Shown in pieces: positions 1-64,000 of a DNA stretch of 64,000 bases. The first letter of the stretch is position 1. The number at the start of each line of letters is the position of its first letter. The position numbers and the translations under genes were made by a program. The DNA is from Chloropicon primus (Eukaryota; Chlorophyta; Chloropicophyceae; Chloropicales; Chloropicaceae), in NCBI GenBank assembly GCA_023205875.1, contig CP060761.1, positions 682,001 through 746,000 on the forward strand. The letters run 5' to 3'. The notes beneath the pieces were generated by a model. It had not been told where the DNA came from and did not search any database. It was given only the letters and a program-made list of their open reading frames with translations.

Positions 1-393
1 CAATGCGTTACCTGTTCCTGCATAAGGACTCACATCAGTCAGGTAATGCGACATGACCTTACTGTAGTCCATGCTCGAAATTCCAACAAAAACACCCACT
101 AAGGACGACCTTGTAGGCATTGGTGTCAAAGCTTCCCAAGCACTTTGCAGGAGAAGTCTCTGTTGAGGGTCCATAAGCATTGCTTCGCCTTGAGACATGC
201 GTAGACATTCTGAGTCAAACATCTCAACTTGGCATATCAATGCACCGAAGTATGCCCCCATAGGACCAGCACGCCATGCAATAGATTCTGCATCTGCACG
301 CTCATACACTGCACTGCAATCCAAACCACACGTCTCCTCAAGGGTACGCATCTTTCCTGGAGCACGACTAGACACCGATGACACATATATCAA
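1..393 (-). other. PKS module M14 (partial): start of KS
   Basis: This is the N-terminal third of a KS, cut by the window edge before its Cys. It reads LIYVSSVSSRAPGKM at its start, MSQGEAMLMDPQQ near 160-200 and SKVMSHYLTDVSPYAG near 15-60, all identical in type to KS12 and KS13. It shows that the gene continues with at least one more module. Confidence 0.85.
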
Positions 394-3300
394 CATGTCC
401 TCGGAGATCTTGCCACCGGGAATGCCTTGCGCAACGGTCTGCTCTTCCATTTCATACACAGCGTCTTCAGGAGCCAGTGTCTCGCTGATGAACCCTGCGA
501 CTGCATTGATGTTTGGATAATCAAACACCAAAGTAGTGGGCAATTCCACACCCATGCTCTGTTGAACCGTGTTATGAAGCTCCACAGCTCCTAAGGAGTC
601 CAAACCTGCATCCAAGAGCGGCTCATCCCCACCAACTTCACGGCCGAGAACGTCTCCAACAACACCTGTGAGGTAAGTTTCAATCTGGGACGTGCGCTCG
701 TTTTCTGAAAGCTTTGCAAGCTGTGCAGCAAAGCCAGTCTGACCTGAAACAGATTTACTACCATCAGTTTCAAGCGCATCTCTTTCTACTTCACTGAAGA
801 AAGCAGGAACAGAAGGCATCAATTTCAGGAAGCGGCCCCATGAGATTGGTGCTGCCGCTACCAAAGGCAAAGACATGCCAGCACTGACACTATCATTGGC
901 GGATCGCAAGATACTTCCCAAAACACACAAACCTTCAACTGACGTCAAAGATTGCATGCCAACACGTTCCAGTCTCGAGGACGTAGAGGAAGACTGCAGA
1001 GCCATTCCTCCACCAGACCATGCTCCCCACTGAATGCTGGTGGCACAGCCTCCCTGAGACTCCATGGCGCTGGACCACGTGTCCAAGTAGGCATTGGCTG
1101 CACTGTAGTTGGATTGACCCGCTGAGCCTAGCAACGACGCTATGGAAGAGAACAACAGTTGAGAGGAAACACTGTGACCCCAAGAGCGCGCATGCAAATG
1201 ATGCAAGGCATCCACCTTGGGTGCAAAGACAGTGCGTACACTCTGCATGCTCTGAGATCCCAAAAGCATATCAGACAGCAAGCCTCCAGCATGCATCACT
1301 TGAGCCAAAGGCATGTCAAGGCCTGGCCACGACAAAGCACTGCTGCACTCCTCCTGGGAGCCTGCATCGCATCTAATGGCACAGAACACTGCACTGCTCG
1401 ATGGATCTTGCAAACTCAACAAGGCAGACTTGGATTTGTCCATGTCAACAGGCAACCTGTAATGACCAGAACGTCCGGCAAGCCTGAGATCAGGGGTCAT
1501 GTGTTGGGCAGCCCACTGACCCATAAGGGATCCAAGGGCACCCAAACCACCTGTCACAAAAGAGCAACCAGACTCCTGCATACTCAACAGACTTGTGGTG
1601 CCAAGACCCTGGCTCACAACAACCTTGCCAACATGCTTAGCACCAGCCAGCCAACGGAGGGCAGCTTGAACGCCGTTCAGTGTATGAGAAGTACTTCTCA
1701 GCCCTGACACGGCACCCTCTGCAATACCACCAGCAAGACGGCACAGTGCCTGGTGTGTCCTGGCAGGAGGCAAGAAGTCCACCGCCAAAAGACTGTAAAC
1801 CACATCAGGACGCTCCCGGTGTACACCAGATGGACTCCAAATGTCGCGCTTACCAATCTCCACCAACTGACCACCAAGGTGCAAGCAAGATAAACTTGCT
1901 CCGACCATACCTGATGATGTCAGCGAGTTGAGAATCAAGCCCATGCCTTCCACCTGTCCATTGTAAGCCGTTTGTCCCAAATCAGCATACCTGGTCGATC
2001 GCGAACTCACAACATGTTGTACGCCCATAGATCTCAGCAAGTGCCTCTTCAAACTGCTACCTGCTGTGGCCCACATCTCGCCACCAAGGGCATGAACCAC
2101 TTGACAAGCAGCCAGGCCTATGCCTCCCGCAGCGGCATGCACCAGTACAGCCTGACCTGCATTGCTTGGAAGAGATGCTGCATGGCACATGGCAACATCT
2201 ACGGTCATGAACACAGTGACCATGGTGCATGCCTCCACAAAACTAGCGGCCTTGGGAATAGGCACAACAAGCTGATGCAGAGTGTATGCGTGCGATCCCA
2301 GACAACCAGGTGCCAAACCTGCCACCCGGATGCCAACCTGCAATGCATCTGGAGCATCATGCAGATGACGGGTGTCCCACACATCACTCACGATACCAGA
2401 CATGTCACTTCCTGGAGGACCAGGATCTCCTGGATAAGCTCCAAGAACATTCAAGACGTCCCTGAAATTTAGACCAACAGCCATTACCTGAAGGAATACC
2501 ATGCCCTCCCCTCCCGCGTCAGAATCCAGCTTGTGTGCAGCCAAACTACTCAAAGAGCCCCTTGGGCTGGGTACAAGCTGAGAATAAGACAAAGAGGAAG
2601 ACACTCTACCATGCAGCAAACGAGACTGGAGCCAAGTGTTTTGCCTGATAGCAGCTTCCAGGTCGTGCAATGACGTTGTCAGGCTCTGTGCAGACACATC
2701 ACTTGGAGCATACATATCAAGATCCACATCATGCATTGCTTGACGTGGGCGCTCCTGAGCCAATGTACGCATCAAACCCAGCATACTTCCGAATGACCAG
2801 TTGCTGAGGGACGAGGAGCTGCTTGACCAAGCCGCAGGCAAGCATCCCAAAACAAGAGCAACAAGCTTGCTCGCGCCTGTTACACTTTCAGGAAGCTGTT
2901 GCAGTAAAGCCATTACTGCTTGAGTCACCAGCATACTGGCATTCACGCCAAGGCCAGGATGTACTTCAAAAGCAATCTCACTCTGGTCCTGCTCCAACAA
3001 AATGGTGAAGCGAGAAAGATCATGTCCTTGCAACGAAGAAGAAGATGGCAAAACAACACTATCACATTGCCAAGAAACCTCGTACAGGAGGTCCTTCTTT
3101 TCTGTGACAGCCTGGGCCCTACCCACTGGACGGGCACCCATCTGCCTTGCCTCCAACTCACTCAGAACGGCAACAGGGGCACCGCTCTTCCTCTGGAGCA
3201 CGTGATTTGTGATCACAGACTGTGAACCAGAAGGTGGTGCCACGGACTCTGCCAAAGCATACATATGCAAGTCATGCGTCTTCTGTGGCACACTGAAAGC

Positions 3301-6300
3301 TCCAAAGCCGGCAGGCACATAAGCTCCTCCAGACATACCGGATGACTCCGCAGAGTCACTTCCAACGTGCATCACGGCAGCCAGCTGCAAGCAGCCATCT
3401 AAGGCAGCAGGGTGAACCATCATACCTGACTCATCGTGATCACCTGGAAGGTGCTCAGGGATACTCTTCATGCATCCTTGAGCAGCCCTACCTGTCTTCA
3501 CACGCACATTCCATGCACCACTGAACTGGGGACCGTACTGAAGGCCTGCCAAAGCCAAACCTTGGCGCACTTGTGACCAATCCAGTGGTCCTTGGCAGAG
3601 ACTGCGGGTACAATCTATAGAAACGTTTGTGTCCGTAACAGCATCTGCGCTGACGATCTCACTGACAAGCCGAGAAGCTAGAGAACGCATGTGTACGCTG
3701 CCTCCGCTCGGGCCTGACATGCTGGATGAAGAGCCTATCTGAAGCTCGCCTGTCAAACACCAAATCTTGCTTTCCAAGTACAGAGGAGCACTTGTTGAGT
3801 CATCTGTTGGCGAGGCTGGCAGCATCAGAGGTGCAGCGATGGATGCCTGCACTGCAGCTCCAGGCAGCGACCCTTGATGAGCCACCGCAACCAACGCACA
3901 GGCTGTCTCCATGAAGCCAGCTCCAGGGAAGAGCACACGGCCCATCACCCTGTGATCCCAAATCCATTGCAGACTTGGACGCATCAGTTGGCTGTATGTG
4001 CACACATGAATGTCGTCGTGCAGAACGGGAACAGCGGCCAGAACCAAAGGATGGGAAACAGGTCCCACCCAGAAGCGCTGATTCTGCCAGTGCTGGCCCA
4101 CCCAACTTGAGAGCACTCCTACATTCATCATGGTGTGTCGCACCAAAGCATGAGCATTGGTTCCTTGGAACGCAAATGCACTCACACCAGAGGCATGTGT
4201 AGACTCACTCCAAGTCAAACCATTTTGCTCACGGCACAAATGACCCATGCGAGCTCCTTGCGCAGATTGAGATCCTCCCAAAATACGCGTCAGATGAGGG
4301 TTAATGTGACGCAAATGAAGCACAGGAGATGTTGTTCTATGGCATGTGCCATGAATAGCATGGATCAGGCCAACAGCTCCAGCAGCAGGCTCAGTGTGAC
4401 CCACGTAGGTCTTGCCCGCCTGAACACTGAGAGGCGCAGTTCCCTCCAAATCAGCACTTCTGGATTGCAAAAGCACCGCGTGGGCTGCACCAATCTCAAT
4501 AGGGTCTCCGAGCGGAGTACCCGTACCATGCATGTTAAGGATAGCCACAGAGGAGCTTGCCAAAGAAGCCCTCTGCATTGCACTGGATATAACCTTTTGT
4601 TGTGCTGGGCCGTTTGGTGCAGTCAAGGCAGATGAGCGACCATCTTGGTTCACAGCAGATCCTGCAAAGCACACCACATGGCCTCCTGTCTCAGCAGACT
4701 TGCCTTCTGCGTCAAGCAACAAAACACCACAAGCTTCTCCACGCACATATCCATCGGCATCTGCATCGAGGGTCTTGCACCTGCCATCAATGGCCAACAT
4801 ACCAGCCTGCTTGAACACAACACCAGTATCAGGAGCCAAGGTCAGGTTCACACCACATGCAAGTGCCATAATGCACTCCCCAAGCAACAGACTGTCACAT
4901 GCCACATGAGATCCTACTAAAGAAGAGGAGCAGGCAGTATCTGTGCTGATTGCAGGACCTTGTAAACCGTATGCATACGAAACACGACCTGCAGCAACAC
5001 TCAATGCGTTACCTGTTCCTGCATAAGGACTCACATCAGTCAGGTAATGCGACATGACCTTACTGTAGTCCATGCTCGAAATTCCAACAAAAACACCCAC
5101 TAAGGACGACCTTGTAGGCATTGGTGTCAAAGCTTCCCAAGCACTTTGCAGGAGAAGTCTCTGTTGAGGGTCCATAAGCATTGCTTCGCCTTGAGACATG
5201 CGTAGACATTCTGAGTCAAACATCTCAACTTGGCATATCAATGCACCGAAGTATGCCCCCATAGGACCAGCACGCCATGCAATAGATTCTGCATCTGCAC
5301 GCTCATACGCTGTACTGCAATCCAAACCACACGTCTCCTCAAGGGTACGCATCTTTCCTGGAGCACGACTAGACACCGATGACACATATATCAACATGTC
5401 CTCGGAGATCTTGCCACCGGGAATGCCTTGCGCAACGGTCTGCTCTTCCATTTCATACACAGCGTCTTCAGGAGCCAGTGTCTCGCTGATGAACCCTGCG
5501 ACTGCATTGATGTTTGGATAATCAAACACCAAAGTAGTGGGCAATTCCACACCCATGCTCTGTTGAACCGTGTTATGAAGCTCCACAGCTCCTAAGGAGT
5601 CCAAACCTGCATCCAAGAGCGGCTCATCCCCACCAACTTCACGGCCGAGAACGTCTCCAACAACACCTGTGAGGTAAGTTTCAATCTGGGACGTGCGCTC
5701 GTTTTCTGAAAGCTTTGCAAGCTGTGCAGCAAAGCCAGTCTGACCTGAAACAGATTTGCTACCATCAGCTTCAAGCGCATCTCTTTCTACTTCACTGAAG
5801 AAAGCAGGAACAGAAGGCATCAATTTCAGGAAGCGGCCCCATGAGATTGGTGCTGCCGCTACCAAAGGCAAAGACATGCCAACACTGACACTATCATTGG
5901 CGGATCGCAAGATACTTCCCAAAACACACAAACCTTCAACTGACGTCAAAGATTGCATGCCAACACGTTCCAGTCTCGAGGACGTAGAGGAAGACTGCAG
6001 AGCCATTCCTCCACCAGACCATGCTCCCCACTGAATGCTGGTGGCACAGCCTCCCTGAGACTCCATGGCGCTGGACCACGTGTCCAAGTAGGCATTGGCT
6101 GCACTGTAGTTGGATTGACCCGCTGAGCCTAGCAACGACGCTATGGAAGAGAACAACAGTTGAGAGGAAACACTGTGACCCCAAGAGCGCGCATGCAAAT
6201 GATGCAAGGCATCCACCTTGGGTGCAAAGACAGTGCGTACACTCTGCATGCTCTGAGATCCCAAAAGCATATCAGACAGCAAGCCTCCAGCATGCATCAC

Positions 6301-9300
6301 TTGAGCCAAAGGCATGTCAAGGCCTGGCCACGACAAAGCACTGCTGCACTCCTCCTGGGAGCCTGCATCGCATCTAATGGCACAGAACACTGCACTGCTC
6401 GATGGATCTTGCAAACTCAACAAGGCAGACTTGGATTTGTCCATGTCAACAGGCAACCTGTAATGACCAGAACGTCCGGCAAGCCTGAGATCAGGGGTCA
6501 TGTGTTGGGCAGCCCACTGACCCATAAGGGATCCAAGGGCACCCAAACCACCTGTCACAAAAGAGCAACCAGACTCCTGCATACTCAACAGGCTTGTGGT
6601 GCCAAGACCCTGGCTCACAACAACCTTGCCAACATGCTTAGCACCAGCCAGCCAACGGAGGGCAGCTTGAACGCCGTTCAGTGTATGAGAAGTACTTCTC
6701 AGCCCTGACACGGCACCCTCTGCAATACCACCAGCAAGACGGCACAGTGCCTGGTGTGTCCTGGCAGGAGGCAAGAAGTCCACCGCCAAAAGACTGTAAA
6801 CCACATCAGGACGCTCCCGGTGTACACCAGATGGACTCCAAATGTCGCGCTTACCAATCTCCACCAACTGACCACCAAGGTGCAAGCAAGATAAACTTGC
6901 TCCGACCATACCTGATGATGTCAGCGAGTTGAGAATCAAGCCCATGCCTTCCACCTGTCCATTGTAAGCCGTTTGTCCCAAATCAGCATACCTGGTCGAT
7001 CGCGAACTCACAACATGTTGTACGCCCATAGATCTCAGCAAGTGCCTCTTCAAACTGCTACCTGCTGTGGCCCACATCTCGCCACCAAGGGCATGAACCA
7101 CTTGACAAGCAGCCAGGCCTATGCCTCCCGCAGCGGCATGCACCAGTACAGCCTGACCTGCATTGCTTGGAAGAGATGCTGCATGGCACATGGCAACATC
7201 TACGGTCATGAACACAGTGACCATGGTGCATGCCTCCACAAAACTAGCGGCCTTGGGAATAGGCACAACAAGCTGATGCAGAGTGTATGCGTGCGATCCC
7301 AGACAACCAGGTGCCAAACCTGCCACCCGGATGCCAACCTGCAATGCATCTGGAGCATCATGCAGATGACGGGTGTCCCACACATCACTCACGATACCAG
7401 ACATGTCACTTCCTGGAGGACCAGGATCTCCTGGATAAGCTCCAAGAACATTCAAGACGTCCCTGAAATTTAGACCAACAGCCATTACCTGAAGGAATAC
7501 CATGCCCTCCCCTCCCGCGTCAGAATCCAGCTTGTGTGCAGCCAAACTACTCAAAGAGCCCCTTGGGCTGGGTACAAGCTGAGAATAAGACAAAGAGGAA
7601 GACACTCTACCATGCAGCAAACGAGACTGGAGCCAAGTGTTTTGCCTGATAGCAGCTTCCAGGTCGTGCAATGACGTTGTCAGGCTCTGTGCAGACACAT
7701 CACTTGGAGCATACATATCAAGATCCACATCATGCATTGCTTGACGTGGGCGCTCCTGAGCCAATGTACGCATCAAACCCAGCATACTTCCGAATGACCA
7801 GTTGCTGAGGGACGAGGAGCTGCTTGACCAAGCCGCAGGCAAGCATCCCAAAACAAGAGCAACAAGCTTGCTCGCGCCTGTTACACTTTCAGGAAGCTGT
7901 TGCAGTAAAGCCATTACTGCTTGAGTCACCAGCATACTGGCATTCACGCCAAGGCCAGGATGTACTTCAAAAGCAATCTCACTCTGGTCCTGCTCCAACA
8001 AAATGGTGAAGCGAGAAAGATCATGTCCTTGCAACGAAGAAGAAGATGGCAAAACAACACTATCACATTGCCAAGAAACCTCGTACAGGAGGTCCTTCTT
8101 TTCTGTGACAGCCTGGGCCCTACCCACTGGACGGGCACCCATCTGCCTTGCCTCCAACTCACTCAGAACGGCAACAGGGGCACCGCTCTTCCTCTGGAGC
8201 ACGTGATTTGTGATCACAGACTGTGAACCAGAAGGTGGTGCCACGGACTCTGCCAAAGCATACATATGCAAGTCATGCGTCTTCTGTGGCACACTGAAAG
8301 CTCCAAAGCCGGCAGGCACATAAGCTCCTCCAGACATACCGGATGACTCCGCAGAGTCACTTCCAACGTGCATCACGGCAGCCAGCTGCAAGCAGCCATC
8401 TAAGGCAGCAGGGTGAACCATCATACCTGACTCATCGTGATCACCTGGAAGGTGCTCAGGGATACTCTTCATGCATCCTTGAGCAGCCCTACCTGTCTTC
8501 ACACGCACATTCCATGCACCACTGAACTGGGGACCGTACTGAAGGCCCGCCAAAGCCAAACCTTGGCGCACTTGTGACCAATCCAGTGGTCCTTGGCAGA
8601 GACTGCGGGTACAATCTATAGAAACGTTTGTGTCCGTAACAGCATCTGCGCTGACGATCTCACTGACAAGCCGAGAAGCTAGAGAACGCATGTGTACGCT
8701 GCCTCCGCTCGGGCCTGACATGCTGGATGAAGAGCCTATCTGAAGCTCGCCTGTCAAACACCAAATCTTGCTTTCCAAGTACAGAGGAGCACTTGTTGAG
8801 TCATCTGTTGGCGAGGCTGGCAGCATCAGAGGTGCAGCGATGGATGCCTGCACTGCAGCTCCAGGCAGCGACCCTTGATGAGCCACCGCAACCAACGCAC
8901 AGGCTGTCTCCATGAAGCCAGCTCCAGGGAAGAGCACACGGCCCATCACCCTGTGATCCCAAATCCATTGCAGACTTGGACGCATCAGTTGGCTGTATGT
9001 GCACACATGAATGTCGTCGTGCAGAACGGGAACAGCGGCCAGAACCAAAGGATGGGAAACAGGTCCCACCCAGAAGCGCTGATTCTGCCAGTGCTGGCCC
9101 ACCCAACTTGAGAGCACTCCTACATTCATCATGGTGTGTCGCACCAAAGCATGAGCATTGGTTCCTTGGAACGCAAATGCACTCACACCAGAGGCATGTG
9201 TAGACTCACTCCAAGTCAAACCATTTTGCTCACGGCACAAATGACCCATGCGAGCTCCTTGCGCAGATTGAGATCCTCCCAAAATACGCGTCAGATGAGG

Positions 9301-57200: not shown

Positions 57201-60200
57201 ACAACTACTTGATGATGTGTGTAGGTATGTGATCCCAGACAACCAGAAGCCAAACCTGCAACAGCAGAGCCAACTGTCAATGGTTGTGGTTGCAAAGATT
57301 TTCCTCCTAGGTGAACTTGAACAACAATACCAGAGACGTCACTTCCTGGAGGACCAGGATCTCCTGGATAAGCTCCAAGAACATTCAAGACATCCCTGAA
57401 ATTCAGTCCGACTGAAATAACCTCTACAAGTAGAATACCCAATGGAGGACTTTCAAGCTTCACTTGGTCTGTGACCAGATTACTCAAGGCACCCCGGGGG
57501 CGGGGCACTATTTGCACAAGGCCTGATGGTGGTACATATGATTCGTTTAACAAACGGGCAACATTGACAAATTGACTTCTGACAACAATTTCATGGCCTT
57601 CATTTTCATTCCACCATGTTGATAGGCTTTCGTCAGATTCTCCTTTGCCAAGATCTACACAAGGCCAAGAAACATTTCTCTGCTCTGATCTTACTGATCG
57701 TAACAGTCCTCTTAGACTTGCAGATAGAGCACAACCCTTGTACACGTTTGCGCATCCCATGCCCATCTGAGATTCCAGCACAGATCCAAATGTCTTCAAA
57801 AGCATTTCCTTACCACTGCCCTTCAAAAGAGGAACAGACTGGGCTATGGACAAAAAGGCACCCACAGCATTCAAATAAGTGTGCTCGTGACTCTCGCCTC
57901 CTTCAACGCATATTGAAGCATTGGACAAATGAACACGGAATAAATGTGATTTGGATATGAGCGTTGTTGCCGGGACAGCTTGAGGCTTCACCATGGAGCT
58001 CTGCCAGCTCATCACATAGATGTTACCCATGGCCTTGCCAACAACTGGTGATGTTCTCATAGATGGTTTGATAGACTTGGTTTGCAAATCCTGAAGTTTG
58101 CTCGCAATAGAACCATCCACATCAAGTATATAGTGAGAGCTCAAGGTTGTGTTACTCTGATCAGGTGAGGCGGCCTTACCACGCACAGCAACTCCAAATA
58201 TGTTCTGGCCAGACAAATCAGATGCAATGGAATACACAGAGAAACCCGCAGGAACCTTGGCATCCTTTGAGGACTCACTACTCGATTCATCGTCCCGTAA
58301 GCCCACTCCGAGATGCATGCATCCATCCAACACAGCAGGGGGCACGGACATGCCAGATTCGTCTGTACCGCTTGTACCAGACAAGCAACCAAACACATGC
58401 TTCCCATTAGAAGCAACGTTGAGTCTCGACACGACTTGGAAGTGTGGACCATATTGCAGACCAACAGAGTACAAAGATGCATACATTGCTGTACTATCCA
58501 CAGATTGGCTGCACTGCCCACGCACAATCTCTGGCGATGCAGACACAGATTTATCATACGCAGAACCAACTGAAGATGATACATGCACATGCTCATCCAG
58601 CTTCAACCCAATACATGCACGGAGGTGCAATCCAGAACCCCCTTGCAAGGAATTGCTTGATCTGATCTCTATGTCACCTTGCTCCATATCAACAAGAACG
58701 GATAACTCACAATCTTCCACCAGACCATTCTGGGTCTCGTGTGGCTTTGCCAGAGTCAAGGGCATTGGAATACTTGCATGAAGAACAAGAGACTTGAGTT
58801 GAGTGCCCATAGTCCCATTGCATATCTCAGACACACATCCACCCATTTCCATGTAGGCAGCACCTGGGCATACAATACGCCCCATGACTTGATGGTCGCA
58901 TATCCATTCAAGAATAGGTCGTTGAAGCTTGGACGACAAGGCAATGATATCAGATCCTGTGTTCTTTCTCACCTCAACAGCTGACATCAGTGGGTGAGTC
59001 AATGGAAGAATCCAGTACCTGTTGGATTCCCAAGCCACAGACTGGAAAGAAAGAGAGCAATTAATGTTGTTGCAGCCAATGGGCAATGACATCAGAACGT
59101 GAGCGTTGGTTCCTTGGAATGCAAAGGAACTTATACCAGTTGGGCACCCGCTTTGAGAGAGCGGAGATGATCTGCTTGTAGACTGCCTTGGCAGAGCATA
59201 GCACGGTCTGGATGCCTTGGCATCGTTTGTGTTTGCACTCATCATCTTCTCCAAGTGAACGTTGATGCTTCTCAAATGCAATATGGAATGGGAAACGTGT
59301 TGTTCAATTGTACTCAATGTCACGATGAGACTTGCAATACCAGCAGCAGATTCTGTATGCCCCACAGATGTCTTGCAGGCCATAAGTAAAGCAGGGGTTC
59401 CATTCTCTGAACGCCCAGAATCACTGATATCTTTCCTTCTCAAGGAAAGAACTCTATCCAAAGCACCAATCTCAATGGGATCACCGAGTGGAGTTCCAGT
59501 ACCATGCAATTGGAAGCCTTCAAGATTGCCGAGATCAAGTGCAGCGTTATTAACAGCGCTTGTGATCACCTTTTGTTGTGCTGGACCATTAGGTGCAGTC
59601 AATGCAGACGATCTACCGTCTTGATTCACAGCAGATCCTTTGAGCTCTACAAAAGCTACGCCTTCGTCCTTGCCGAATCTCTTAATGCAAAGTGCACCAC
59701 ATGCTTCACCCCGGACATAGCCATCAGCTGAAGCATCCAAGGTCTTGCATCGTCCATCAAGAGCGAGCATTCCAGCTTGCTTAAATATTTGGCCCGTGTC
59801 AGGTGCTAGTGTCAAGTTCACACCTATGGACAAAGCCGCATGACATTCTGTTGCAAACAAGCTCTGCATTGCAAGATGTGTTCCTACAAGAGATGATGAG
59901 CAAGCAGTGTCTACAGAAAGAGATGGGCCTGTCAGACCATACATGTACGAGATACGTCCTGCTGCTACGCTTGTCGAACTTGCAGTGGCTGTATACGGAT
60001 TTGGATCCACAGGCACAAAGTACATCAGCTTGCTATAATCAGATGCAGATATGCCAACAAATACACCCATGTTGTCTTGTTTGGAGAACTTGAAGCATAC
60101 TTGCAAAATGAATCTCTGCTGTGGATCCATCACAAGAGACTCGCTGGATGAAAGCTTGAAGGCATGTGCATCAAAGTTCTCTACTTGTGGGATGAAGCTG

Positions 60201-63200
60201 CCAAAGTATGATCCAGCTGAACCAGCCATCCACCCAGATGATTCACAGTCACCTCGGGAATATGGTTCCACAGTATCAATTCCACAAGTGGATGCAAGTG
60301 AATCCATACCAAGGGAACAATGGCTTCCAATGGATGTAATGGCAATCGTAATACCATCCTTGAGTCCTCGTGCATCTGGCACGGCAGATTCAGGCTTTGA
60401 GGAAAGTACATCGCCACCTTGGGCATCCTCCGGAGCAAGGATGTCACTCAAATGATTGCCAATCATGGATATGGAAGGATAATCAAATATCAAGGTAGCA
60501 GGCAAATCGATTCCAAACCTCTGTTGTAAAGCATTGTTGAACTCCACTGTTCCAAGAGAGTCAAGTCCTGCTTCCATCAAAGGCTCTTCTGCTGATATCT
60601 CTCGGCCCACGACACTAGCTGCAAGAGCTCCTACAGATGATATGATGGCTTCCTTCTGGAACCTCACTTTACCAGGAACGCTGTACAGGTACTTGCGAGG
60701 AACTGCTTTCGATGGATACAGAAGTAGCCTTCCTGAAATTGTCAAAGACTTTGCTTTCTCCGACACCAGCAAGGAACTTGTCCCATACAAATGGAACTGC
60801 ACTTACAACTGCATTCGATACACAAGGACTTCCAAAACGATGACTGGAGTTCTCATACAATACGCTTTTGAGCACAGATAGACCTTCTTCTCCTGACAAA
60901 GCTGGCATGCCAACACGTTCCAATCGGGCAGTTGTGGATGGGTCCCGTAAAGCCATTCCTCCACCAGACCATCCTCCCCACTGAATGCTGGTGGCACAGC
61001 CTCCCTGAGACTCCATGGCGCTGGACCACGTGTCCAAGTAGGCATTGGCTGCACTGTAGTTGGATTGACCCGCTGAGCCTAGCAACGACGCTACAGAAGA
61101 GAACAACAGTTGAGAGGAAACACTGTGACCCCGAGAGCGCGCATGCAAATGATGCAAGGCATCCACCTTGGGTGCAAAGACAGTGCGTACACTCTGCATG
61201 CTCTGAGATCCCAAAAGCATATCAGACAGCAAGCCTCCAGCATGCATCACTTGAGCCAAAGGCATGTCAAGGCCTGGCCACGACAAAGCACTGCTGCACT
61301 CCTCCTGGGAGCCTGCATCGCATCTAATAGCACAGAATACTGCACTGCTTGATGGATCTTGCAAACTCAACAAGGCAGACTTGGATTTGTCCATGTCAAC
61401 AGGCAACCTGTAATGACCAGAACGTCCGGCAAGCCTGAGATCAGGGGTCATGTGTTGGGCAGCCCACTGACCCACGAGGGATCCAAGGGCACCCAAACCA
61501 CCTGTCACAAAAGAGCAACCAGACTCCTGCATACTCAACAGACTTGTGGTGCCAAGACCCTGGCTCACAACAACCTTGCCAACATGCTTAGCACCAGCCA
61601 GCCAACGGAGGGCAGCTTGAACGCCGTTCAGTGTATGAGAAGTACTTCTCAGCCCTGACACGGCACCCTCTGCAATACCACCAGCAAGACGGCACAATGC
61701 TTGGTGTGTCCTGGCAGGAGGCAAGAAGTCCACCGCCAAAAGACTGTAAACCACATCAGGACGCTCCCGGTGTACACCAGATGCACTCCAAATGTCGCGC
61801 TTACCAATCTCCACCAACTGACCACCAAGGTGCAAGCAAGATAAACTTGCTCCGACCATACCTGATGATGTCAGCGAGTTGAGAATCAAGCCCATGCCTT
61901 CCACCTGTCCATTGTAAGCCGTTTGTCCCAAATCGGCATACCTGGTCGATCGCGAACTCACAACATGTTGTACGCCCATAGATCTCAGCAAGTGCCTCTT
62001 CAAACTGCTACCTGCTGTGGCCCACATCTCGCCACCAAGGGCATGAACCACTTGACAAGCAGCCAGGCCTATGCCTCCCGCGGCGGAATGCACCAGTACA
62101 GCCTGACCTGCATTGCTTGGCAGAGATGCTGCATGGCACATGGCAACATCTACGGTCGTAAATACTGTAATCATGGTGCATGCCTCCACAAAAGTAGCGG
62201 CCTTGGGAATGGGCACAACTACTTGATGATGTGTGTAGGTATGTGATCCCAGACAACCAGAAGCCAAACCTGCAACAGCAGAGCCAACTGTCAATGGTTG
62301 TGGTTGCAAAGATTTTCCTCCTAGGTGAACTTGAACAACAATACCAGAGACGTCACTTCCTGGAGGACCAGGATCTCCTGGATAAGCTCCAAGAACATTC
62401 AAGACATCCCTGAAATTCAGTCCGACTGAAATAACCTCTACAAGTAGAATACCCAATGGAGGACTTTCAAGCTTCACTTGGTCTGTGACCAGATTACTCA
62501 AGGCACCCCGGGGGCGGGGCACTATTTGCACAAGGCCTGATGGTGGTACATATGATTCGTTTAACAAACGGGCAACATTGACAAATTGACTTCTGACAAC
62601 AATTTCATGGCCTTCATTTTCATTCCACCATGTTGATAGGCTTTCGTCAGATTCTCCTTTGCCAAGATCTACACAAGGCCAAGAAACATTTCTCTGCTCT
62701 GATCTTACTGATCGTAACAGTCCTCTTAGACTTGCAGATAGAGCACAACCCTTGTACACGTTTGCGCATCCCATGCCCATCTGAGATTCCAGCACAGATC
62801 CAAATGTCTTCAAAAGCATTTCCTTACCACTGCCCTTCAAAAGAGGAACAGACTGGGCTATGGACAAAAAGGCACCCACAGCATTCAAATAGGTGTGCTC
62901 GTGACTCTCGCCTCCTTCAACGCATATTGAAGCATTGGACAAATGAACACGGAATAAATGTGATTTGGATATGAGCGTTGTTGCCGGGACAGCTTGAGGC
63001 TTCACCATGGAGCTCTGCCAGCTCATCACATAGATGTTACCCATGGCCTTGCCAACAACTGGTGATGTTCTCATAGATGGTTTGATAGACTTGGTTTGCA
63101 AATCCTGAAGTTTGCTCGCAATAGAACCATCCACATCAAGTATATAGTGAGAGCTCAAGGTTGTGTTACTCTGATCAGGTGAGGCGGCCTTACCACGCAC

Positions 63201-64000
63201 AGCAACTCCAAATATGTTCTGGCCAGACAAATCAGATGCAATGGAATACACAGAGAAACCCGCAGGAACCTTGGCATCCTTTGAGGACTCACTACTCGAT
63301 TCATCGTCCCGTAAGCCCACTCCGAGATGCATGCATCCATCCAACACAGCAGGGGGCACGGACATGCCAGATTCGTCTGTACCGCTTGTACCAGACAAGC
63401 AACCAAACACATGCTTCCCATTAGAAGCAACGTTGAGTCTCGACACGACTTGGAAGTGTGGACCATATTGCAGACCAACAGAGTACAAAGATGCATACAT
63501 TGCTGTACTATCCACAGATTGGCTGCACTGTCCACGCACAATCTCTGGCGATGCAGACACAGATTTATCATACGCAGAACCAACTGAAGATGATACATGC
63601 ACATGCTCATCCAGCTTCAACCCAATACATGCACGGAGGTGCAATCCAGAACCCCCTTGCAAGGAATTGCTTGATCTGATCTCTATGTCACCTTGCTCCA
63701 TATCAACAAGAACGGATAACTCACAATCTTCCACCAGACCATTCTGGGTCTCGTGTGGCTTTGCCAGAGTCAAGGGCATTGGAATACTTGCATGAAGAAC
63801 AAGAGACTTGAGTTGAGTGCCCATAGTCCCATTGCATATCTCAGACACACATCCACCCATTTCCATGTAGGCAGCACCTGGGCATACAATACGCCCCATG
63901 ACTTGATGGTCGCATATCCATTCAAGAATAGGTCGTTGAAGCTTGGACGACAAGGCAATGATATCAGATCCTGTGTTCTTTCTCACCTCAACAGCTGACA
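1..64000 (-). CDS. Giant AT-less modular type I polyketide synthase, partial at both ends
   Basis: The whole window reads as one multimodular PKS on the minus strand, open at both window edges. Each module has a ketosynthase (KS; DTACSSS, HGTGTPLGDP and GHTE motifs), a hot-dog dehydratase (DH; HxxxGxxxxP, YGPxF, DGCxQ), usually an enoylreductase (ER; GLNFRDVLN and AAAGGIGLAA), a ketoreductase (KR; TGGLGALG and YSAAN) and an acyl carrier protein (ACP; GLDSLG). Two modules carry a C-methyltransferase instead of an ER. No AT, thioesterase, loading or release domain is seen. About 21,300 codons lie here, so the full protein would exceed 2 MDa. Module spacing is a multiple of three everywhere except at two single extra bases, which supports one continuous protein. 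The synthase would elongate an acyl chain on ACP-bound phosphopantetheine; the product is unknown. Two or more adjacent genes instead of one cannot be fully excluded. Confidence 0.85.
394..5394 (-). other. PKS module M13: KS-DH-ER-KR-ACP
   Basis: KS is at 5394-4140 with Cys codon 4930-4932. DH has His codon 3952-3954 and Asp codon 3397-3399. The structural KR half and ER lie at about 3110-1680, with ER loop AAAGGIGLAA near 2100-2150. KR has TGGLGALG near 1525-1555 and Tyr codon 1105-1107. ACP is at about 700-480 with Ser codon 595-597. There is one Ala-to-Thr change in the KR-ACP linker near 768 (LETDGSKS against LEADGSKS). The module is fully reducing and is the last complete module in the window. 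Confidence 0.9.
5395..10395 (-). other. PKS module M12: KS-DH-ER-KR-ACP
   Basis: KS is at 10395-9140 with Cys codon 9931-9933. Its N-terminal part at about 10215-10046 is the second type (MSQGEAMLMDPQQ and SKVMSHYLTD), shared only with M13 and M14. DH has His codon 8953-8955 and Asp codon 8398-8400. KR has Tyr codon 6106-6108 and ACP Ser codon 5596-5598. It is close to base-for-base identical with M13 over 5,001 bases in the stretches I compared, so the duplication or homogenisation is very recent. The module is fully reducing. Confidence 0.9.
10396..15396 (-). other. PKS module M11: KS-DH-ER-KR-ACP, linker type change
   Basis: KS is at 15396-14140 with Cys codon 14932-14934. DH has His codon 13954-13956 and Asp codon 13399-13401. 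KR has Tyr codon 11107-11109 and ACP Ser codon 10597-10599. The KS still has the M8-M11 N-terminus, but the KR-ACP linker and ACP switch to the M11-M13 type: a different linker without the Lys-Asp run (GQTGFAAQLAKLSENERTS) and an ACP reading GGDEPLLDAGLDSLGAVELH. The next KS switches type too. The ER has one Ala-to-Ser change near 11723. The module is fully reducing. Confidence 0.9.
15397..20394 (-). other. PKS module M10: KS-DH-ER-KR-ACP
   Basis: KS is at 20394-19140 with Cys codon 19930-19932. DH has His codon 18952-18954 and Asp codon 18397-18399. The structural KR half and ER lie at about 18100-16670, with YTLHQL in the ER. KR has Tyr codon 16105-16107 and ACP Ser codon 15598-15600. The KS N-terminus is of the M8-M11 type (SPSETTFVDPQQ), and the KR-ACP linker has three Lys-Asp repeats. 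The KS reads LGIEGRCKTLD where M11-M13 read LAIDGRCKTLD. The module is fully reducing, with all catalytic residues present. Confidence 0.9.
15741..15758 (-). repeat. Hexanucleotide repeat in M10 linker, 3 copies
   Basis: Three tgtcct units in the KR-ACP linker of M10, matching M9. The array is absent from the different linkers of M11-M13. Confidence 0.85.
20395..25392 (-). other. PKS module M9: KS-DH-ER-KR-ACP with patched KS
   Basis: KS is at 25392-24135 with Cys codon 24928-24930. It carries short blocks of unrelated sequence around the active site: about 25033-25070 (before the Cys) and about 24823-24912 (after it), plus NPIL instead of NPHL near 24292. Flanking sequence is the normal repeat. 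DH has His codon 23950-23952 and Asp codon 23395-23397. The ER carries the YTHHQL variant near 22265. KR has Tyr codon 21103-21105 and ACP Ser codon 20596-20598. The KR-ACP linker has three Lys-Asp repeats. The module is fully reducing; the altered KS may have a different substrate channel. Confidence 0.88.
20739..20756 (-). repeat. Hexanucleotide repeat in M9 linker, 3 copies
   Basis: Three tgtcct units encode three Lys-Asp dipeptides in the KR-ACP linker of M9. The number is one lower than in M7 and M8, as expected for slippage. Confidence 0.85.
25393..30397 (-). other. PKS module M8: KS-DH-ER-KR-ACP with frame break
   Basis: KS is at 30397-29140 with Cys codon 29933-29935. DH has His codon 28955-28957 and Asp codon 28400-28402. 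ER is at about 27570-26670 and contains one extra C at about 27240, just after the LVVPIPKAATF segment; the M9 counterpart near 22235 lacks it. KR has Tyr codon 26107-26109 and ACP Ser codon 25594-25596. The ACP carries two substitutions (Glu and Ile in QESIGVELP, near 25550-25562) not seen in sister modules. If the extra base is real, the protein would end in the ER and lose everything downstream. Confidence 0.87.
25737..25760 (-). repeat. Hexanucleotide repeat in M8 linker, 4 copies
   Basis: Same linker position as in M7, with four tgtcct units. The two copies here and in M7 each carry one unit more than M9 and M10, which accounts for the 6-base difference in module spacing (5,004 against 4,998). 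Confidence 0.85.
27240..60674 (-). CDS. PKS reading-frame segment 2 (ACP of M1 to ER of M8)
   Basis: This is an uninterrupted frame of about 33.4 kb (some 11,140 codons) running ACP(M1), M2, M3, M4, M5, M6, M7 and the KS-DH-ER part of M8. The literal open frame extends from 60802 to 27059, but its first 43 and last roughly 60 codons read the wrong frame of flanking PKS sequence and show no domain. The frame is entered at the extra A near 60674 and left at an extra C near 27240, where the ER reading collapses into Cys/His/Arg-rich nonsense. There is no intron, no second start signal and no gap between modules. This single frame holds 6 complete modules and is the strongest direct evidence for one giant polypeptide. 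Confidence 0.92.
30398..35389 (-). other. PKS module M7: KS-DH-ER-KR-ACP, junction module
   Basis: M7 joins two repeat families. The N-terminal third of its KS (35389 to about 35010) is the M3/M5 type, while everything downstream matches M8-M13. The KS Cys codon is 34937-34939. DH is at about 34080-33130 and is the second DH type of the gene, with His codon 33959-33961 in HRVMGRVLFPG and Asp codon 33404-33406 in DGCLQ; the motifs look fully active. The structural KR half is at about 33110-32590, ER at about 32580-31680, KR at about 31660-30810 with Tyr codon 31112-31114, and ACP at about 30700-30480 with Ser codon 30599-30601. The KR-ACP linker holds four Lys-Asp repeats. The module is fully reducing. 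Confidence 0.9.
30742..30765 (-). repeat. Hexanucleotide repeat in M7 linker, 4 copies
   Basis: Four plus-strand copies of tgtcct encode Lys-Asp dipeptides in the charged linker between KR and ACP of M7. The hydrophilic run probably acts as a flexible spacer. Confidence 0.85.
35390..40195 (-). other. PKS module M6: divergent KS, atypical DH, ER-KR-ACP
   Basis: This is a near-identical copy of M4. KS is at 40195-38975 with Cys codon 39698-39700. DH is at about 38930-38070 with His codon 38768-38770 (HxxxN) and Asp codon 38327-38329 (Val at plus four). The structural KR half is at about 38040-37530, ER at about 37515-36620, KR at about 36610-35745 with Tyr codon 36092-36094, and ACP at about 35720-35460 with Ser codon 35594-35596. 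Its KS follows a methyltransferase module, as KS4 does, so this KS type goes with an alpha-methylated incoming chain. The same uncertainty about DH activity applies. Confidence 0.85.
40196..45364 (-). other. PKS module M5: KS-DH-KR-MT-ACP
   Basis: This is a near-identical copy of M3, 9,975 bases downstream in the gene. KS is at 45364-44115 with Cys codon 44912-44914. DH is at about 44070-43125, with His codon 43928-43930 and Asp codon 43361-43363 (DGCMQ). KR is at about 43065-41805 with Tyr codon 42068-42070. The methyltransferase is at about 41745-40605. ACP is at about 40480-40260 with Ser codon 40382-40384. The predicted unit is an alpha-methyl enoyl thioester, as for M3. Substitutions relative to M3 are scarce except in the methyltransferase. 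Confidence 0.9.
40605..41745 (-). other. C-methyltransferase domain of M5
   Basis: This is the sister of the M3 methyltransferase. SAM motif I (LEIGAGTGG) lies at about 41105-41155. The presumed catalytic His lies in NVLHAT at about 40895-40930, here preceded by Ala-Ala where M3 has Gly-Ala. The loop near 40761-40795 reads LDGWWAFDDPQ, where M3 has Ala in place of the first Asp after Phe. All signature motifs are intact, so activity is expected. Confidence 0.88.
45365..50170 (-). other. PKS module M4: divergent KS, atypical DH, ER-KR-ACP
   Basis: KS is at 50170-48950 and is clearly diverged from the other KS domains, though Cys codon 49673-49675, the HGTGT His near 49284 and the GHTES motif are kept. 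DH is at about 48900-48040. Its His codon is at 48743-48745, but the motif reads HxxxN instead of HxxxG. The Asp codon at 48302-48304 is followed by Val at plus four, and no YGPxF motif is seen. The structural KR half is at about 48010-47510, ER at about 47490-46600, KR at about 46590-45720 with Tyr codon 46067-46069, and ACP at about 45700-45440 with Ser codon 45569-45571. If the DH is dead, the ER has no substrate and a beta-hydroxyl would remain; if active, the unit is fully reduced. Confidence 0.85.
50171..55339 (-). other. PKS module M3: KS-DH-KR-MT-ACP
   Basis: KS is at 55339-54090 with Cys codon 54887-54889. DH is at about 54045-53100, with His codon 53903-53905 and Asp codon 53336-53338 (DGCMQ). 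A two-part KR spans about 53040-51780, with nucleotide motif GGLGILG near 52480-52500 and Tyr codon 52043-52045 (YSLSN). A SAM-dependent C-methyltransferase follows at about 51720-50580. ACP is at about 50455-50235 with Ser codon 50357-50359. There is no ER and no AT. The expected product unit is an alpha-methyl, alpha-beta unsaturated thioester. The KR-MT-ACP order is the one common in trans-AT synthases of bacteria. M5 is a near copy. Confidence 0.9.
50580..51720 (-). other. C-methyltransferase domain of M3
   Basis: This is a class I SAM methyltransferase fold inside the PKS. SAM motif I reads LEIGAGTGG at about 51080-51130. NVLHAT lies at about 50870-50905 and INELTS follows, matching the His and Glu pair proposed as catalytic in PKS C-methyltransferases. 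LDGWW lies near 50745-50765. It would methylate the alpha carbon of the ACP-bound beta-keto intermediate. It differs from its M5 copy at five residues, all non-synonymous (Q/K near 51142, G/A near 50895, S/T, I/T and A/D between about 50788 and 50736), although the surrounding 10 kb is almost unchanged. Confidence 0.88.
55340..60352 (-). other. PKS module M2: KS-DH-ER-KR-ACP
   Basis: KS is at 60352-59090, with Cys codon 59900-59902, the HGTGT His near 59504 and the GHTES His near 59357. DH is at about 59025-58075, with His codon 58892-58894 and Asp codon 58325-58327, followed by DGCMH as in M1. The structural KR half is at about 58050-57530, ER at about 57520-56610, KR at about 56600-55710 with Tyr codon 56042-56044, and ACP at about 55700-55440 with Ser codon 55544-55546. 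The module is fully reducing. The KS core (about 60045-59010) is unlike any other KS here, while the KS N-terminus and the DH on either side are nearly identical to sister modules, so the KS looks like a swapped-in core. Confidence 0.9.
60353..64000 (-). other. PKS module M1 (partial): DH-ER-KR-ACP
   Basis: The KS lies beyond the window. DH runs from 64000 to about 63100, with catalytic His codon at 63906-63908 in an HxxxGxxxxP motif and catalytic Asp codon at 63339-63341. The residue four after the Asp is His (DGCMH), not the Gln of most sister modules. The structural KR half is at about 63050-62530. ER is at about 62520-61610, with its nucleotide-binding Gly-rich loop near 62050-62098. KR is at about 61600-60730, with Tyr codon 61056-61058. 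ACP is at about 60665-60455, with the phosphopantetheine Ser codon 60557-60559. The predicted outcome is full reduction to a methylene. One extra base at about 60674 breaks the frame between KR and ACP. Confidence 0.85.
60669..64000 (-). CDS. PKS reading-frame segment 1 (M1: DH-ER-KR)
   Basis: This is the upstream part of the window. The frame is open at base 64000, where the sequence is already inside a DH, so the real start lies outside; the GTG at 63986 is an internal Val codon, not a start. The segment reads DH, structural KR half, ER and catalytic KR, about 1,110 codons. It ends at a TAA at 60671-60669, reached only because of one extra A at about 60674 that the parallel KR-ACP linkers near 55,675, 45,700 and 35,715 lack. 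Without that base the frame runs straight into the ACP of the same module. A protein ending here would leave the KR without its ACP, so a true gene end is unlikely. Confidence 0.8.
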   Translation of the reverse strand, partial: SAVEVRKNTGSDIIALSSKLQRPILEWICDHQVMGRIVCPGAAYMEMGGCVSEICNGTMGTQLKSLVLHASIPMPLTLAKPHETQNGLVEDCELSVLVDMEQGDIEIRSSNSLQGGSGLHLRACIGLKLDEHVHVSSSVGSAYDKSVSASPEIVRGQCSQSVDSTAMYASLYSVGLQYGPHFQVVSRLNVASNGKHVFGCLSGTSGTDESGMSVPPAVLDGCMHLGVGLRDDESSSESSKDAKVPAGFSVYSIASDLSGQNIFGVAVRGKAASPDQSNTTLSSHYILDVDGSIASKLQDLQTKSIKPSMRTSPVVGKAMGNIYVMSWQSSMVKPQAVPATTLISKSHLFRVHLSNASICVEGGESHEHTYLNAVGAFLSIAQSVPLLKGSGKEMLLKTFGSVLESQMGMGCANVYKGCALSASLRGLLRSVRSEQRNVSWPCVDLGKGESDESLSTWWNENEGHEIVVRSQFVNVARLLNESYVPPSGLVQIVPRPRGALSNLVTDQVKLESPPLGILLVEVISVGLNFRDVLNVLGAYPGDPGPPGSDVSGIVVQVHLGGKSLQPQPLTVGSAVAGLASGCLGSHTYTHHQVVVPIPKAATFVEACTMITVFTTVDVAMCHAASLPSNAGQAVLVHSAAGGIGLAACQVVHALGGEMWATAGSSLKRHLLRSMGVQHVVSSRSTRYADLGQTAYNGQVEGMGLILNSLTSSGMVGASLSCLHLGGQLVEIGKRDIWSASGVHRERPDVVYSLLAVDFLPPARTHQALCRLAGGIAEGAVSGLRSTSHTLNGVQAALRWLAGAKHVGKVVVSQGLGTTSLLSMQESGCSFVTGGLGALGSLVGQWAAQHMTPDLRLAGRSGHYRLPVDMDKSKSALLSLQDPSSSAVFCAIRCDAGSQEECSSALSWPGLDMPLAQVMHAGGLLSDMLLGSQSMQSVRTVFAPKVDALHHLHARSRGHSVSSQLLFSSVASLLGSAGQSNYSAANAYLDTWSSAMESQGGCATSIQWGGWSGGGMALRDPSTTARLERVGMPALSGEEGLSVLKSVLYENSSHRFGSPCVSNAVVSAVPFVWDKFLAGVGESKVFDNFRKATSVSIESSSSQVPVQRSW

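Follow-up and report, generated by a model that had tools for sequence, protein, structure and literature searches.

Does a single gene, encoding one giant polyketide synthase (PKS), run through the whole of the 64,000-nucleotide stretch of DNA analyzed here (the window), and if so, what would that enzyme make? An earlier reading of the letters alone (the sequence-only reading) had proposed a single PKS gene larger than the window itself. Our analysis leads us to conclude that the window is quite probably the inner stretch of a giant, non-iterative, modular type I eukaryotic PKS, with no AT in its visible part. The features that carry this conclusion are observed directly: the order of the domains, their catalytic motifs, the absence of AT from the window, the continuous series of domains, and a mosaic pattern of identity between modules.

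A continuous series of PKS modules

We translated the window in 17 pieces that jointly cover it and scanned each piece with Pfam at a threshold of E<=1e-3. PKS domains were present in 17 of 17 pieces, forming one series from end to end as had been claimed. The scan yielded 64 domains (12 KS, 13 DH, 11 ER, 13 KR, two C-methyltransferase (cMT), and 13 ACP) plus the head of a 14th KS. All pass the threshold except the DH domains of modules M4 and M6, which are weaker at E 0.014-0.015 (62 of 64 passing). Numbered from high to low coordinate, the domains make up 12 complete modules (M2-M13), one module without its KS (M1), and the start of M14 (Table 1), agreeing with the earlier count of at least 12 complete modules and about 65 domains. 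The presence of the M14 head means that the array continues past the window. The architecture is that of a type I modular PKS, built of repeats that join KS and ACP to tailoring domains, 12 of them complete. NCBIfam searches with three of the module pieces returned PKS and KS matches of a broad kind, with none of the matches shown reaching the cut-off.

A motif scan identified the catalytic cysteine and both histidines in 12 of 12 KS domains, along with the expected motifs in the KR (13 of 13), ER cofactor site (11 of 11), cMT (2 of 2), and ACP (serine in 13 of 13) domains. The N-terminal histidine motif of the DH is likewise present in 13 of 13 domains, with a glycine-to-asparagine change in M4 and M6. 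Aligning three window DHs with 12 prokaryote DHs showed the DH aspartate to be invariant, and showed that the M4 DH is without about 30 residues just past the position of the YGP motif. On these sequence features we count the M4 and M6 DHs as degenerate. An AlphaFold model of the M4 DH was poor (pLDDT 61.7). Foldseek with this model returned DH domains (best 3kg8, E 1e-11, TM 0.54 by query), and these matches suggest a DH-like predicted fold that may or may not be active; a PDB sequence search with the M4 DH region gave nothing significant (best E 0.11).

Reading frames and continuity

All open reading frames of at least 300 aa in the 64-kb window lie on the minus strand, so the earlier claim of one coding strand stands. 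Visible coding sequence amounts to 21,333 codons (about 2.25 MDa), where about 21,300 had been estimated, and is spread over three open frames as sequenced (Table 1). The longest, predicted at about 33.4 kb and found to be 33,741 nt, is free of stops for 11,247 codons, as compared to a maximum of 387 codons in 100 random first-order Markov sequences. It contains the ACP of M1, which is read in this frame and not in the first, followed by modules M2-M7 and the KS, DH, and start of the ER of M8. Neighboring frames overlap, the first and second at 60802-60672 and the second and third at 27390-27062. These overlaps mark two frame changes, one in the KR-ACP linker of M1 and one in the ER of M8. Apart from them, the 21,333 codons run without interruption. 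We saw no intron in the window, its 64 kb being coding save for the two frame changes, and a tRNA search of the window found none.

Two observations bear on whether genes end within this series. First, at all 12 junctions measured, the ACP serine and the following KS cysteine lie 657, 666, or 684 nt apart, always a multiple of three; being constant and in frame, these junctions leave no room for a gene boundary. Second, both frame changes fall mid-module, at places where the modules are spaced by a length not divisible by three and where sister modules are uninterrupted over the same stretch. Because they lie mid-module and the sister modules read through, the frame changes look like indels, either sequence errors or true mutations, and not like gene ends. 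Introns at these two places were considered and ruled out, as no longer stretch there is absent from the sister modules.

If the frame changes are true mutations in a genuine copy, the window could represent a decaying or recently disabled PKS pseudogene. Two frame changes in 64 kb and the degenerate DHs of M4 and M6 are what such decay might leave. We nonetheless judge it unlikely: there is no further interruption in the coding sequence, the KS, KR, ER, cMT, and ACP motifs are intact throughout, and the differences within the four closest module pairs are skewed to synonymous sites (see below). The frame changes could alternatively separate several adjacent PKS genes, whose three polypeptides would meet there and cooperate non-covalently as in bacterial assembly lines. 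There are indeed three open frames as sequenced, and the second and third each have a GTG readable as a start. The frames change in a KR-ACP linker and in an ER, however, rather than behind an ACP; they overlap, with no spacer between them; and the same stretches are unbroken in sister modules. Such an arrangement is quite unlikely.

Overall, the design of one giant polypeptide is strongly supported by the in-frame linkers, the absence of any stop, intergenic space, or intron, and the intact KS, KR, ER, cMT, and ACP motifs. The earlier claims of a single PKS gene and of no gene boundary thus hold for the design, with junctions in frame and no spacer, and fall short in that the sequence reads in three frames with two frame changes.

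Table 1. Modules, open reading frames, and largest internal repeat of the window
Feature	Coordinates	Strand	Description
M1 (partial)	60532..64000	minus	DH-ER-KR-ACP; KS beyond window
M2	55519..60531	minus	KS-DH-ER-KR-ACP
M3	50305..55518	minus	KS-DH-KR-cMT-ACP; C-methylating, no ER
M4	45544..50304	minus	KS-(degenerate DH)-ER-KR-ACP
M5	40330..45543	minus	KS-DH-KR-cMT-ACP; 99.75% identical to M3
M6	35569..40329	minus	KS-(degenerate DH)-ER-KR-ACP; 2 mismatches vs M4
M7	30565..35568	minus	Fully reducing KS-DH-ER-KR-ACP; first ~0.5 kb like M2/M3, remainder like M8-M13
M8	25560..30564	minus	Fully reducing; frame change within ER
M9	20562..25559	minus	Fully reducing
M10	15564..20561	minus	Fully reducing
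M11	10563..15563	minus	Fully reducing
M12	5562..10562	minus	Fully reducing
M13	561..5561	minus	Fully reducing; 6 mismatches vs M12
M14 head	1..560	minus	Start of KS; 99.6% identical to M12 and M13 heads; second PF00109 stretch
Open frame 1	60669..63998 (63998-60672 without stop)	minus	1109 aa + stop, 5' open; M1 DH, ER, KR
Open frame 2	27059..60802 (60802-27062 without stop)	minus	11,247 aa + stop
Open frame 3	1..27390	minus	9130 aa, 3' open; rest of M8, M9-M13, head of M14
Largest internal repeat	34155..57259 (57259-44130 vs 47284-34155)	minus	13,130 bp, 99.6%, offset 9,975 bp

Absence of AT and a short KS-DH linker

No AT family was detected at E<=1e-3 in any of the 17 pieces, and no GHSxG motif was found in the three frames, the ends of the protein lying outside the window. 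Across the window, then, the modules lack an AT domain, as those of trans-AT PKSs do. The stretch from the NAH motif of the KS to the RYW or RFW motif (the KS-DH linker) measures only 27-29 residues in 10 of 12 KS; in M4 and M6 the W motif was not found.

For comparison, we assembled a prokaryote PKS sample from a profile scan of genome contigs, using the best 80 of 575 loci. In this sample, an AT motif follows within 300 aa after 92 of 107 NAH-bearing KS. Among the 15 remaining KS, a W motif is found in 8, at 110-387 residues, some of these possibly chance matches. A linker of 27-29 residues, set against at least 110, indicates that the AT and most of the KS flanking region are gone here. The flanking subdomain of bacterial trans-AT PKSs, which spans ca. 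100 aa from NAH to LPTYPFx5W in the excerpts of PMC11260071, is likewise largely missing from the 10 of 12 window KS in which the linker could be measured.

Modules are a mosaic of near-identical blocks

The modules are strikingly alike. M3 and M5 differ by 13 mismatches in 5214 bases, M4 and M6 by 2 in 4761, and M12 and M13 by 6. M7-M13, mutually 92.8-99.9% identical, form seven consecutive reducing modules after a duplicated cMT-bearing bimodule, with adjacent modules from M7 to M11 differing by 63-278 bases. The largest internal repeat (Table 1) is a two-module unit whose edges fall within the ER and behind the KS NAH motif. More generally, the modules form a patchwork of sharply bounded blocks, with 96-100% identity between copies.

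We measured identity across these edges in 15 edge comparisons. At the NAH edge, M3 vs M7, M3 vs M10, and M5 vs M12 are 100% identical over the 150 nt leading to NAH and 20-38% identical beyond it. At the RYW edge, M2 and M3 are 10-38% identical up to RYW plus two residues and 100% identical from there, in a block that stops at LQDLQ past the DH. Two edges lie inside the KS, 133 and 63 nt ahead of the cysteine motif, with 24-70% identity on the far side. An edge in the ER before AGL shows 82-92% identity beside it and 20-38% farther out, and further edges occur at the end of the KR and in the KR-ACP linker of M10 vs M13, whose linkers differ. Both the KS-DH and the KR-ACP linkers vary with module type. 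M1/M2, M2/M3, M4/M5, and M6/M7 share a block (98.1-99.7%) that runs through ER, KR, and ACP into the N-terminal part of the following KS. In our reading of the alignments, the type of the KS N-terminal part matches that of the upstream ACP at 13 of 13 junctions, M14 included, a pattern expected from joint copying.

The KS domains vary in other ways. Those of M4 and M6 (50182-48803 and 40207-38828) share only about 35% identity with the M7 KS and match the Pfam KS profile from position 4, where the other KS match from about position 53; by sequence, the M4 and M6 KS may be of separate origin. The KS of M2, M3, and M7, together with that of M5, which belongs to the same block, are 5-6 residues shorter than the M13 and M4 KS between DPQQR and GVF (60044-60531, 55031-55518, 35081-35568, and 45056-45543, respectively). 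The only tandem repeats found were two 25-base TGTCCT arrays, at 25737-25761 in M8 and 30742-30766 in M7. They encode Lys-Asp repeats in the KR-ACP linker, the number of which varies among modules and may explain part of the small differences in module length.

Are the copies real? A shorter PKS with fewer modules could have been expanded or polished into near-identical copies during assembly, and the sequence-only reading had itself raised the prospect of a collapsed or expanded assembly with far fewer modules. The handful of differences between M4 and M6, M12 and M13, and M3 and M5 is what this scenario would produce. We therefore counted synonymous (S) and nonsynonymous (N) differences in the four closest pairs (M1/M2, M3/M5, M4/M6, and M12/M13), where neutral expectation puts the synonymous share at about 24%. 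Overall there are 18 S and 12 N differences (p = 2.3e-5), with M1/M2 at 8 S and 1 N (p = 8e-5) and M12/M13 at 4 S and 2 N (p = 0.03). Random sequence errors would not give this synonymous bias, and as a set the copies look real and selected; for M3-M6 alone, that is for the M3/M5 and M4/M6 pairs, the test is silent. The divergence among M7-M11 and the differing KR-ACP linkers of M10 and M13 further imply that at most a few copies are artefactual. The worry over the assembly is thus lessened by the synonymous bias and not removed, and we regard an artefactual array as rather improbable.

A probable eukaryotic host

In the same prokaryote sample, the KS relatives are 37-45% identical to those of the window. 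Two parts of the window were tested for the CpG observed/expected ratio, and both gave 0.46; within the long frame, the values at the three codon positions span 0.41-0.49. Across the 80 prokaryote PKS loci the ratio ranges from 0.51 to 1.43, with a minimum of 0.71 in the 21 loci of similar GC, leaving the window below all of them. Similarly, CA/TG is 1.55 in the window and 0.53-1.29 in the 80 loci. A quick tree of 8 of the 12 window KS with 60 prokaryote KS placed the prokaryote rows on one side, apart from the window KS (SH-aLRT 93, not starred, with a long-branch warning). Trans-AT clades are hardly sampled in this tree, given that 92 of the 107 NAH-bearing KS of the sample precede an AT motif.

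Searches of plasmids and viruses gave only distant matches. In a tblastn search of plasmids, 1074 records matched, only in KS and always at less than 60% identity; the ten matches listed are at 37-43%. Among viral contigs, the KS alignment picked out three distant loci at 27-32% identity, and the first window protein (P0001) found no relative. One viral hit, on the 12.3-kb IMG/VR contig L081 (3212-4465), is a KS 32% identical to a window KS, on what is possibly a misfiled bacterial contig.

The CpG depletion together with the 37-45% identity to prokaryote KS point to a eukaryotic host, most likely a microalga or other protist; the composition fits a host with CpG methylation, with no intron in the window. 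The order KS-DH-KR-MT-ACP is also found in bacterial trans-AT modules, but a giant bacterial trans-AT PKS, which this order and prokaryote KS identities of up to 45% might suggest, is highly improbable given the CpG ratio below every prokaryote PKS locus in the sample, the short linker where 8 of 15 AT-less prokaryote KS have a measurable one of at least 110 residues, and the position of the window KS outside the prokaryote rows in the quick tree.

Several points weigh against a giant eukaryotic PKS with no AT in its visible part. The two frame changes mean that the long protein would not be made from the sequence as it stands, and the DHs of M4 and M6 are degenerate. No start codon, loading domain, or release domain was found in the window, the last two as noted before, both ends of the protein lying outside it; a single N-terminal AT, as excerpts of PMC7073580 describe for haptophyte PKSs, would also lie outside. 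Taken alone, M3/M5 (5 S and 8 N, p = 0.16) and M4/M6 (1 S and 1 N, p = 0.42) give no sign of purifying selection, and dN/dS is 0.28-0.63 among the more distant reducing modules M9-M12, which are not strongly constrained. The quick KS tree warns of long branches meeting, and does not unite the M4 and M6 KS with the other six window KS. Identity changes less sharply at the KS and ER edges (40-70% and 82-92% beside the edge) than at the NAH and RYW edges, and the identity of blocks may stem in part from consensus polishing of repeats.

A proposed assembly line and its product

In a modular PKS, an AT loads malonyl onto the ACP, the KS condenses it with the growing chain, and the tailoring domains set the state of the beta-carbon. 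In the giant PKS that we favor, the growing chain would stay on a single polypeptide of 21,300 or more residues, and every ACP would receive its malonyl either from a separate AT protein or from a lone AT close to the N-terminus, beyond the window. Modules would hand the chain on in order of falling window coordinate. Both KR types of the window have Asp as the third residue of their LDD-like motif, which we take to indicate a B-type-like KR; together with a DH, such a KR suggests trans double bonds.

Read in this way, M1 and M2 would each add one saturated C2 unit. M3 and M5, with a B-type-like KR, DH, and cMT and no ER, would each introduce an alpha-methyl trans double bond, R-CH=C(CH3)-. 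M4 and M6 would leave a saturated CH2-CH2 unit, or CH(OH)-CH2 with a beta-hydroxyl if the degenerate DH is dead. M7-M13 would then add seven saturated C2 units in succession, or 14 carbons. After 13 cycles the chain would be long and greasy, with a backbone of 26 carbons, two methyl branches, and a length fixed by module count. A role as a structural lipid or wall polymer is plausible by analogy with a Chlamydomonas PKS of like design; a toxin is possible too. When that PKS is disrupted, zygotes do not develop correctly, and a component of the zygote wall has been proposed as its product (PMC7073580).

The mosaic suggests how such a gene could evolve. Its modules would recombine with one another, which would both lengthen and homogenize the gene, and exchange would take place at conserved motifs: behind the KS NAH, just past RYW before the DH, at two points within the KS, within the ER, and where the KR ends. 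An upstream ACP would move jointly with the N-terminal part of the KS that follows it. A bolder proposal, for which we see some chance and more doubt, is that the gene is rewriting itself: recombination at fixed motif ends would add, swap, and homogenize units of ER-KR-ACP-half KS, and strains would differ in how many modules they have and how long a product they make. The alternating C-methyl-ene and reducing bimodule, if the M4 and M6 DHs work, would use polyketide logic to build a repeat resembling isoprene, -CH=C(CH3)-CH2-CH2-.

If whole, the protein would be among the largest known, and would carry the giant-PKS concept beyond polyether toxins to a chain that is mostly saturated. The recent exchanges give module breakpoints at the level of single bases: identity drops from 100% to 20-38% right past NAH, and past RYW it climbs from 10-38% to 100%. 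Natural rules of module exchange, and the control of chain length by module count, thereby become directly testable.

Comparison with known systems

A literature search, in which several queries were not aimed at the gene, showed no paper on it among those listed. The comparisons below are made by description, from excerpts of the cited papers. Closest in kind are the noniterative trans-AT type I PKSs of algae, including the 10-11-module PKS of Chlamydomonas and relatives (PMC4661987, PMC7073580), which are similarly multimodular, have no integrated AT, are mostly reducing, and contain near-identical duplicated neighbors. Algal multimodular AT-less PKSs with duplicated modules include one Ostreococcus PKS with 89-98% overall identity between them (PMC4661987, Shelest 2015). 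The window differs from the algal trans-AT PKSs in its at least 13 modules and 21,333 codons, in the cMT of two modules, and in its seven consecutive near-identical reducing modules. The excerpted text of PMC4661987 calls MT absent from most algal trans-AT PKSs, and modular trans-AT PKSs with methylation functions are described in Chrysophaeum taylorii (PMC10366177).

In size, the window invites comparison with PKZILLA-1 and -2 of Prymnesium parvum, likewise giant multimodular eukaryotic PKSs as two citing papers describe them (PMC12300183, PMC12190008), the former giving 56 modules over both. The prymnesins are ladder-frame polyethers, whereas the window modules would make a mainly saturated chain. 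The PKS/FAS-I enzymes of Cryptosporidium and chromerids are also giant, multimodular, and eukaryotic, and some chromerid modules are without AT and some have MT. The C. parvum enzyme has 13,411 aa in seven modules and that of Chromera more than 11,000 aa in five (PMC7464705, PMC4501334), and a Chlorella PKS is given as 1.2 MDa. The claim that the protein is among the largest known thus holds in that the visible part exceeds these other eukaryotic PKSs, as their sizes appear in the excerpts, with the PKZILLAs excepted.

The mosaic has its nearest parallel in bacterial trans-AT PKSs, where AT-less modules evolve by recombination and the KS goes with the upstream part (PMC11260071). In the hybrids of that 2024 study, similarity drops behind NAHVILEE, the natural site is not placeable within a region of ca. 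100 residues, and the LPTYPFx5W boundary is inferred statistically. Edges in the window match both boundaries, with the stretch between them shorter than 30 residues, the RYW motif being in our reading of the sequence the end of LPTYPFx5W. Most of the region between KS and next domain is missing here, unlike in the bacterial enzymes, and the window KS fall outside a prokaryote sample that holds few AT-less KS. The mycolactone PKS and other concertedly evolving PKSs (PMC4256081) share the extreme internal repetition by duplication and concerted evolution; the mycolactone PKS is bacterial, and the window modules are visibly without AT. Overall, the locus belongs to a kind already known, that of algal multimodular trans-AT PKSs and the PKZILLA giants, and is a very large member of it with an unusual internal structure.
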